A program made the translations under genes and the position numbers. Positions 13,685-37,460 of a stretch of 37,460 nt of DNA are shown here, piece by piece; positions within the stretch are counted from its first letter, which is position 1; each line of letters begins with the position of its first letter. Location: positions 1 through 37,460 of the forward strand of contig JAQXNZ010000161.1 in the NCBI GenBank assembly GCA_029098265.1, in the 5' to 3' direction. This DNA comes from Clostridia bacterium (GTDB lineage: Bacteria; Bacillota; Clostridia; Lachnospirales; Anaerotignaceae). The notes beneath the pieces are model-generated. The model ran no database searches, was not told where the DNA came from, and was given only the letters and a program-made list of their open reading frames with translations.

Positions 13685-13698
13685 TTATAAAAACATGA

Positions 13699-13727
13699 AT
13701 GCCGGAACTTTGTTCCGGCATTTTTTT
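13699..13727 (+). terminator. Rho-independent terminator of rpsB-tsf
   Basis: ATGCCGGAAC (13699-13708) pairs perfectly with GTTCCGGCAT (13712-13721) around TTT, followed by seven T in total. The T-tract ends exactly where repeat copy A begins. A decayed second copy of the same sequence lies at 14021-14049, on the far side of the element. Confidence 0.93.
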
Positions 13728-14020
13728 AGTGTCGACAAAGTCGACACTAAGTCGAAAACCTGTTTTCGACTTGATGTATTAAGGTATGAAGTCTGGCAGG
13801 TTCTCAAATTCCCTGCGGGAACGCCTACGGCGCCGCGACTTTCACGCGGTTTGCACATTACACTGCGCACGGCTTGTGTCTTAGGACTTCTCCACGGCAG
13901 AAGTGAATTCTGCCGTGGTTTAAAGCCTCAGAAAACCTTCCCGGTTTTCCGAACCTTTCCCGGTTATTGTAGCTGATACCGGATAATATAAAATAATTAG
14001 TTGAGTTTATCTACAGTCTG
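13728..14020 (+). repeat. Hairpin-cluster repeat element, copy A
   Basis: A non-coding element of 293 bases between tsf and the lipid kinase gene, matching copy B (26208-26439) over its whole length. In order: hairpin H1 (AGTGTCGAC 13728-13736 with GTCGACACT 13740-13748), H2 (AAGTCGAAAAC 13749-13759 with GTTTTCGACTT 13762-13772), H3 (GAAGTC 13788-13793 with GACTTC 13885-13890), H4 (CCACGGCAGAA 13892-13902 with TTCTGCCGTGG 13908-13918), two small hairpins of the AAAACC/GGTTTT and AACC/GGTT kind, and a tail ending CTACAGTCTG. The H3 loop carries an insertion of about 65 bases absent from copy B. The rest of the 497-base intergenic gap (14050-14181) shows only a poorly defined promoter region before the lipid kinase gene. 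Confidence 0.9.
13795..13859 (+). repeat. Extra hairpin module inserted in H3 of copy A
   Basis: About 65 bases absent from copy B. It is built of three mini-hairpins: TTCCC-TGC-GGGAA, CGCC-TAC-GGCG and CCGCG-ACTTTCA-CGCGG. It is more GC-rich than the surrounding DNA. The exact borders may shift by a few bases. Confidence 0.7.
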
Positions 14021-26180: not shown

Positions 26181-26207
26181 AGGCAGAACCTTCGGGTTCT
26201 GCCTTTT
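26181..26207 (+). terminator. Rho-independent terminator of the RelQ-like gene
   Basis: AGGCAGAACC pairs with GGTTCTGCCT around TTCG, a stable UUCG-type tetraloop, followed by T residues up to 26207, exactly where repeat copy B begins. A second copy with one changed base lies at 26440-26466. Confidence 0.9.
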
Positions 26208-26439
26208 AGTGTCGACAAAGTCGACACTAAGTCGAAAACCTGTTTTCGACTTGTTTTAAATTAAGGCATGAAGTCCTGACACTGCGCATGCTTGTGTCTT
26301 AGGACTTCTCTGCGACGGAAGTGAATTCCGCCGCAGTTTAAAGCCTCAGAAAACCTTCCCGGGTTTTCCGAACCTTTCCCGGTTGTTTTAGCTAATACAG
26401 AGTAATTTCAAATGGTTAGTTGAGTTTGTCTACAGTCTG
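26208..26439 (+). repeat. Hairpin-cluster repeat element, copy B
   Basis: A 232-base non-coding element that fills the gap between the RelQ-like gene and gntR. In order: H1 (AGTGTCGAC 26208-26216 with GTCGACACT, identical to copy A), H2 (AAGTCGAAAAC with GTTTTCGACTT, identical to A), H3 (GAAGTCCTGACAC 26270-26282 with GTGTC..AGGACTTC 26294-26308, a TT bulge), H4 (CTGCGACGGAA 26310-26320 with TTCCGCCGCAG 26326-26336, one mismatch), tandem AAAACC/GGTTTT and AACC/GGTT hairpins, and a tail ending CTACAGTCTG. It lacks the H3 insertion of copy A and so may be closer to the basic form. Nothing in it looks coding. Confidence 0.92.
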
Positions 26440-26467
26440 AGGCAGAACCTTCGGGATCTGCCTTTTT
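26440..26467 (+). terminator. Duplicate of the RelQ-gene terminator on the far side of copy B
   Basis: This matches 26181-26207 at 26 of 27 bases (GGGTTCTG becomes GGGATCTG) and keeps its T-tract on the plus strand. No plus-strand gene ends here; gntR ends from the other side and would need T residues on the opposite strand. It is therefore best explained as a duplication of the upstream terminator flanking the element. Confidence 0.85.
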
Positions 26468-37124: not shown

Positions 37125-37171
37125 TGAGATGATAATAGGTTTTTGACAAGGTTGTATTAGCAGACACTTGA

Positions 37172-37298
37172 ACCCTGACGCAATTCATTTGCGGGCAGGG
37201 TCAATAAACTGATATTTAATGAAGCTGAGAGCAAAGGTTTTGCAGGAACTTTTGCTCTCAGAGCCGACAACAAGTTGAAATCCCAAAGGATTTCAACT
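37172..37298 (+). other. Run of three hairpins after ygiQ
   Basis: ACCCTG/CAGGGT with an inner CGCAA/TTGCG (37172-37201); CTGAGAGCAAA (37225-37235) with TTTGCTCTCAG (37251-37261); and AGTTGAAATCC (37273-37283) with GGATTTCAACT (37288-37298). None has a good T-tract. The third leads directly into repeat copy C and resembles H2 of copies A and B in design. Confidence 0.75.
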
Positions 37299-37301
37299 CA
37301 G

Positions 37302-37460
37302 AGTGTCGACAAAGTCGACACTAAGTATAGTCAGTATTTTGCTAAAGCAAAACCGCTTCGCGTCCGCACATCTTTGCGGTACTAGAAAACAGGTTTTCGA
37401 CTTGTTTAAATTAATGCATGAATGGCTATTCCATCAGCTTTTCAAAAAAACGTATAAGCT
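37302..37460 (+). repeat. Hairpin-cluster repeat element, divergent copy C (runs off window end)
   Basis: H1 is identical to copies A and B (AGTGTCGAC 37302-37310 with GTCGACACT 37314-37322). Then AAG is followed by about 60 bases absent from A and B, holding TTTTGCT-AA-AGCAAAA and ACCGC/GCGGT hairpins, and then the right arm of H2 returns (GGTTTTCGACTTG) followed by the shared AAATTAA(T/G)GCATGAA. After 37422 it differs from A and B. The left arm of H2 is lost, so this is a rearranged member. The 3' end lies outside the window. Confidence 0.8.

Follow-up and report, generated by a model that had tools for sequence, protein, structure and literature searches.

The window, a 37 460-nucleotide stretch corresponding to contig C161 of a draft genome of 2.14 Mb, carries three copies of a hairpin-rich intergenic repeat, located behind tsf (copy A), behind a relQ-type gene (copy B) and downstream of ygiQ (copy C). 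Their coordinates and those of the associated features are listed in Table 1.

Copies of the repeat

Copies A and B display the ends and the ordered set of hairpins reported for them in a preliminary description of the window, and copy C is likewise present from the given start at 37302 to the end of the window, where the end of the contig cuts it off after 159 nt. The left end, which was described as fixed, is a shared sequence, but for many copies the real start is 2–3 nt further upstream (CAGAGTGTCGAC; copy C, for example, begins at 37299). With this earlier start the ends become inverted repeats: the left terminus CAGAGTGTCGACAAAGTCGAC and the reverse complement of the right terminus CAGACTGTAGACAAACTCAAC are identical at 17 of 21 positions in this genome and thus constitute imperfect terminal inverted repeats. 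The right end is nearly constant among the copies (TTTGTCTACAGTCTG), and the CAG...CTG termini are also seen in the elements of relatives. Location directly after the 3′ end of a gene, as originally stated for all three copies, does not extend to copy C, which is found ∼175 nt behind ygiQ, past a second, different repeat. This second hairpin repeat family (window positions 37160–37301; GGGTCAATAAACTGATATTTAATGAAGC...AAGTTGAAATCC...GGATTTCAACTC) has 25 matches in the same genome; copy C has inserted behind the hairpin that closes this repeat, and the C4 and C16 copies adjoin other members.

A blastn search with copy A as the query produced 94 matches in the 2.14 Mb genome, so that the further copies anticipated in the preliminary description do exist, and the left-end hairpin (hairpin 1) occurs ∼75 times compared with zero occurrences for a reversed control pattern. 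The copies are 205–455 bp in length and, as noted previously, this short element contains no conserved open reading frame. Subfamilies carry additional internal modules. In many copies (e.g. C90:13274, C36, C177 and window position 37323 onward) the left arm of hairpin 2 is replaced by the module AAGTATAGTCAGTATTTTGCTAAAGCAAAACCGCTTCGCGTCCGCACATCTTTGCGGTACTAGAAAACAGG, and in a 290-bp subfamily hairpin 3 is filled by another module; these internal swaps are modular evolution inside the element.

Table 1. Features of the repeat copies and their insertion sites in the window.
Feature	Position	Strand	Remarks
Intrinsic terminator of tsf, target of copy A	13698..13727	+	Hairpin AATGCCGGAACTTTGTTCCGGCATT and T-run; tsf assigned by TIGR00116
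Copy A	13728..14020	+	293 bp, long subfamily; right flank now without a recognisable hairpin duplicate
Left duplicate, terminator hairpin of the relQ-type gene	26181..26207	+	AGGCAGAACCTTCGGGTTCTGCCTTTT
Copy B	26208..26439	+	232 bp
Hairpin 1 (left-end palindrome)	26208..26228	+	AGTGTCGAC-AAA-GTCGACACT
Hairpin 2	26229..26252	+	AAGTCGAAAAC-CT-GTTTTCGACTT; compensatory changes between genera
Hairpin 3	26271..26308 (approximate)	+	Arms replaced together between subfamilies and species
Hairpin 4	26310..26336 (approximate)	+	Conserved GAAGTGAATTC apex
Hairpin 5	26349..26371 (approximate)	+	
Right end of copy B	26416..26439	+	TTAGTTGAGTTTGTCTACAGTCTG; last 15 nt equal the end of an IS1182 element of an order-level relative (L173)
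Right duplicate of the terminator hairpin, with T-run	26440..26467	+	AGGCAGAACCTTCGGGATCTGCCTTTTT
Hairpin closing the second repeat family, target of copy C	37272..37298	+	AAGTTGAAATCCCAAAGGATTTCAACT
Copy C	37299..37460	+	Begins CAGAGTGTCGAC...; cut by the contig end

Terminator hairpins and flanking duplications

The oriented flanks of ∼80 copies reveal a placement that is absent from the preliminary description: most copies begin directly 3′ of an intrinsic terminator. A hairpin of −8 kcal/mol or better is present in the left flank of 60 of 78 copies, compared with 43 of 300 random positions. The upstream gene points toward the element in 61 of 74 copies, with a typical distance of 30–60 nt from the stop codon. 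Orientation is a preference relative to the gene only; the idea of a strict orientation with respect to the T-tract was rejected, because many targets have comparable A-runs and T-runs on either side and because one inverted copy exists, in the genome G001. The terminator of tsf is without an element in three sister species (congeners), and the relQ-type gene of G001 is followed by an independent copy in the opposite orientation, located between two copies of that gene's own terminator hairpin.

Copy B is bracketed by the terminator hairpin on both sides (26181–26207 and 26440–26466, 26 of 27 positions identical), with the sequence AGGCAGAACCTTCGGG(T/A)TCTGCCTTTT. Such direct repeats were assessed in the 46 copies with both flanks measurable, using 2070 mismatched pairs of left and right flanks as a control, and score above the best control pair in 21 of these copies (copy B included). 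The repeats comprise the entire terminator hairpin in the 21 copies, with C58 as the sole exception, and their length follows the hairpin length (r = 0.81 for 15 copies). Clear duplications are also present in 24 of 36 copies from other genomes, and their length follows the hairpin length here too (r = 0.965 for the 23 copies with a scorable hairpin). About half of the copies in the genome of the window have no detectable hairpin duplication, which is expected if these copies are old. The two hairpin copies differ in what follows them: more T residues follow the right hairpin than the left hairpin in 20 of 23 cases and fewer in one.

A few copies lie outside hairpins and have duplications of ∼8–10 bp, which suggests that this length is the default stagger of the transposase; a single stagger geometry may operate on linear DNA as well as at a cruciform base. 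These non-hairpin insertions include C70 of the window's genome (ATTCTGAA) and L145, L236, L237 and L243 of G001, and some of the short targets are themselves small palindromes.

Interior hairpins across the order

Hairpins 2–5 are common to 15 sequences from eight genomes. In a test for compensatory change, 18 of the 33 base pairs were altered on both sides (64 cells), with 97.9% of cells paired; the score was reached by none of 500 shuffles and the signal was destroyed when the partners were slid against each other. G-U pairs account for only four of the 459 paired cells. In larger sets restricted to hairpins 1 and 2 (hairpin 5 was left out), G-T combinations number four and A-C combinations 11, with no strand asymmetry. 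Owing to the near-absence of G-U and the strand symmetry, the pairing seems to be kept at the DNA level, which suggests DNA-folding selection or arm-to-arm correction rather than maintenance as RNA. The interior hairpins have apparently been long kept as DNA inverted repeats.

A covariance-model search, as proposed in the preliminary description, was run across the order and detected the element in 70 of 295 genomes and in 25 of 129 genera. Copies in another family of the order (e.g. G227) have GTGTCGA... as the left end, ...GACAGTCT as the right end and hairpin duplicates. Searches of Rfam at the gathering and at relaxed thresholds returned nothing above the cut-off, and an interior pattern, used as a check on carriage by phages, has no matches in viral contigs. 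Three places in the complete genome G101 (C1:597085, 1237948 and 3743260; L311–L313) have identical model scores and lack the ends and duplications of the repeat; they may belong to some other structured element or to a larger repeat.

IS1182-family elements and the proposed mode of insertion

Searching with the end pattern identified 11 copies of a 1483–1484-bp insertion sequence in a relative with a complete genome (G081). This IS has the ends CAGACTGTCAAAAAA...TTCTTTGACAGTCTG and encodes a 476-residue IS1182-type DDE transposase (NF033551, E = 6.8e-112, 374.8 bits against a cut-off of 270), which also matches PF13751 and PF05598. A duplicated terminator hairpin (20–35 bp) flanks each of the 11 copies, with borders within 1 nt of the stem base, and the duplication and hairpin lengths correlate with r = 0.998 (11 copies, two of which have near-identical surroundings and may be one event). 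The same genome also contains the short repeat, the right end of which equals the IS end at 15 of 15 nucleotides. In two order-level relatives, G116 and G046, IS1182 elements have matching ends and are flanked by hairpin duplicates, 22 bp long in G116 and 25 bp long in G046. The IS end in G116, CAGACTGTAGACAAA, where the protein is also of the IS1182 family, matches the right end of the repeat in the window at 15 of 15 nucleotides.

The repeat is therefore a MITE, very probably one that is moved in trans by a hairpin-targeting and hairpin-duplicating transposase of the IS1182 family. At the sequence level, the ends, the terminator targets and the hairpin-sized duplications of the repeat are all found again in complete IS1182 elements; mobilization of the MITE by the IS1182 enzyme would account for this correspondence. 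The preliminary suggestion of a non-autonomous mobile element is well supported by the inverted ends, the target duplications, the many copies, the lineage-specific insertion and the identification of an autonomous relative. The repeat, itself a MITE, contradicts the accompanying statement that the layouts of MITEs are simpler.

In the proposed mechanism, an IS1182-family transposase would recognize the CAG...CTG ends of the MITE and select a folded stem-loop as its target, usually a hairpin that belongs to an intrinsic terminator. This hairpin may be recognized as a DNA cruciform or as a single-stranded fold, the geometry of the insertions being what points to a cruciform. The element would be joined at both bases of the hairpin, each on a different strand; repair of the gaps would then copy exactly the hairpin and yield the order hairpin, element, hairpin, T-tract. 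The left hairpin would lose most of its T-tract and the upstream transcript would consequently run through the element to end at the right-hand terminator, which would render the insertion nearly harmless.

Four other explanations were weighed against this one. The preliminary description had also considered a structured transcript module, and the element could mainly be a structured non-coding RNA, a 3′-UTR module that is conserved for RNA function and uses transposon ends as a vehicle. Conservation of the interior hairpins in 25 genera and the compensatory changes described above agree with such a module, and because the terminators lose their T-tract, insertion behind them would place the element in transcripts. 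RNA helices usually drift through G-U pairs, though, and these are nearly missing here, G-T combinations do not outnumber A-C in hairpins 1 and 2, and no Rfam family matches; the hairpins are conserved with compensatory changes, but their pairing points to DNA rather than to RNA. The lack of G-U pairs lowers an RNA-only reading, and we consider a primarily RNA-based function unlikely. A retroelement resembling group IIC introns would share the general class of target, as these introns prefer sites behind intrinsic terminators. Group IIC introns are, however, RNA-based and have neither inverted ends nor target duplications, whereas the element has inverted DNA ends and a duplicated target hairpin; given also that Rfam contains no matching intron RNA and that identical ends occur on an IS with a DDE transposase, this candidate was rejected as extremely improbable.

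The remaining two concern the duplicates and the enzyme. That the flanking hairpins are terminators restored by selection or by recombination once the element had inserted, and not products of transposition, would explain why some right-flank terminators differ from the left (e.g. C28, C93 and C160), but it has very little probability in view of the near-exact duplicates, loop sequences included, in 21 copies of this genome and in several genera, and of the duplicates with borders at the stem base around every one of the 11 IS copies. A different, unrelated transposase could instead move the MITE, with IS1182 sharing its ends and target by convergence. With the Pfam family and two protein queries, the draft assembly analysed here yielded no IS1182 transposase. 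None was found either in its three congeners or in G063, a complete genome (Clostridium sp. MD294 ASF356, same family), and the gene is missing from the search results for the MITE-rich genomes G000 (the genome of the window), G001, G003 (Anaerotignum sp. MSJ-24, same genus) and G063. Against convergence, all 15 end bases and the same unusual hairpin-sized duplication coincide in G081, which holds both elements, and we regard an unrelated enzyme as improbable. Under the preferred explanation, a MITE served by an IS1182 transposase, it is possible that the enzyme in the genome of the window has been lost, is unassembled, is plasmid-borne or is a different one. Perfect hairpin duplications occur in G063 (L091, L101, L111 and L166) despite the absence of a detected IS1182 transposase, and there the enzyme may have been recently lost or may come from an external source.

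ISfinder lists long and variable duplications for IS1182, and the duplication may be partly known to specialists. No earlier report of terminator-targeting MITEs or of hairpin-sized duplications was found in the open-access papers searched. The staphylococcal members IS1272 and TnSha1 of the IS1182 family target inverted repeats or stem-loops, in many cases confirmed terminators, that have no sequence consensus; these elements remove the hairpin partly or completely, form no target duplication and have been seen in both orientations in one target (PMC4923244; PMC5678879). Other IS1182 members also target palindromes according to a passage of one of these papers that cites Siguier 2015 (PMC4923244). 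Hairpin targeting by this transposase family is thus already known. The elements described here resemble IS1272/TnSha1 in the transposase family (NF033551), the stem-loop target and insertion at the hairpin, but the hairpin is duplicated whole (11 of 11 IS copies in G081) instead of deleted. Like other bacterial MITEs, the repeat is short, gene-less and hairpin-rich, with inverted ends, target duplication and many intergenic copies; it differs in a variable duplication length that is set by the target hairpin, and in an interior that is conserved across genera and is not a recent deletion product of one IS (PMC10969869). It shares with the pneumococcal SPRITE, BOX and RUP repeats the character of a small intergenic hairpin repeat, some of which are terminator-like, but has different ends and a different target, and inserts into a terminator without being one (PMC3049150). 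In the open-access papers searched, no earlier description was found of the hairpin-duplicating mode, of this MITE family or of its interior, which is conserved across the order.

The correspondence of duplication length and hairpin length in both IS and MITE across many genera provides a natural data set for structure-directed transposition, in contrast to the hairpin-deleting mode of IS1272/TnSha1, and makes cruciform recognition by IS1182 enzymes directly testable. Terminators offer a gene-sparing landing place, of which dozens are occupied in one genome of 2.1 Mb. The MITE also accounts for a widespread repeat of gut Clostridia, among them ASF356, a strain of the mouse standard flora. A more far-reaching proposal, which we put forward tentatively and think rather doubtful, is that of an order-wide module that reads DNA shape: the transposase would sense the folded hairpin or cruciform, the hairpin length would set the duplication, and the split between hairpin and T-tract would bring the interior with its several hairpins into dozens of host transcripts, within the 3′ UTR; there the interior might have a selected role in mRNA 3′-end stability or regulation.

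Directly before the hairpin duplicate of one IS1182 copy in G046 (L169) lies another element end (TTTTTCGACAGTCTG): the hairpin duplicated by an earlier insertion has received a second one.
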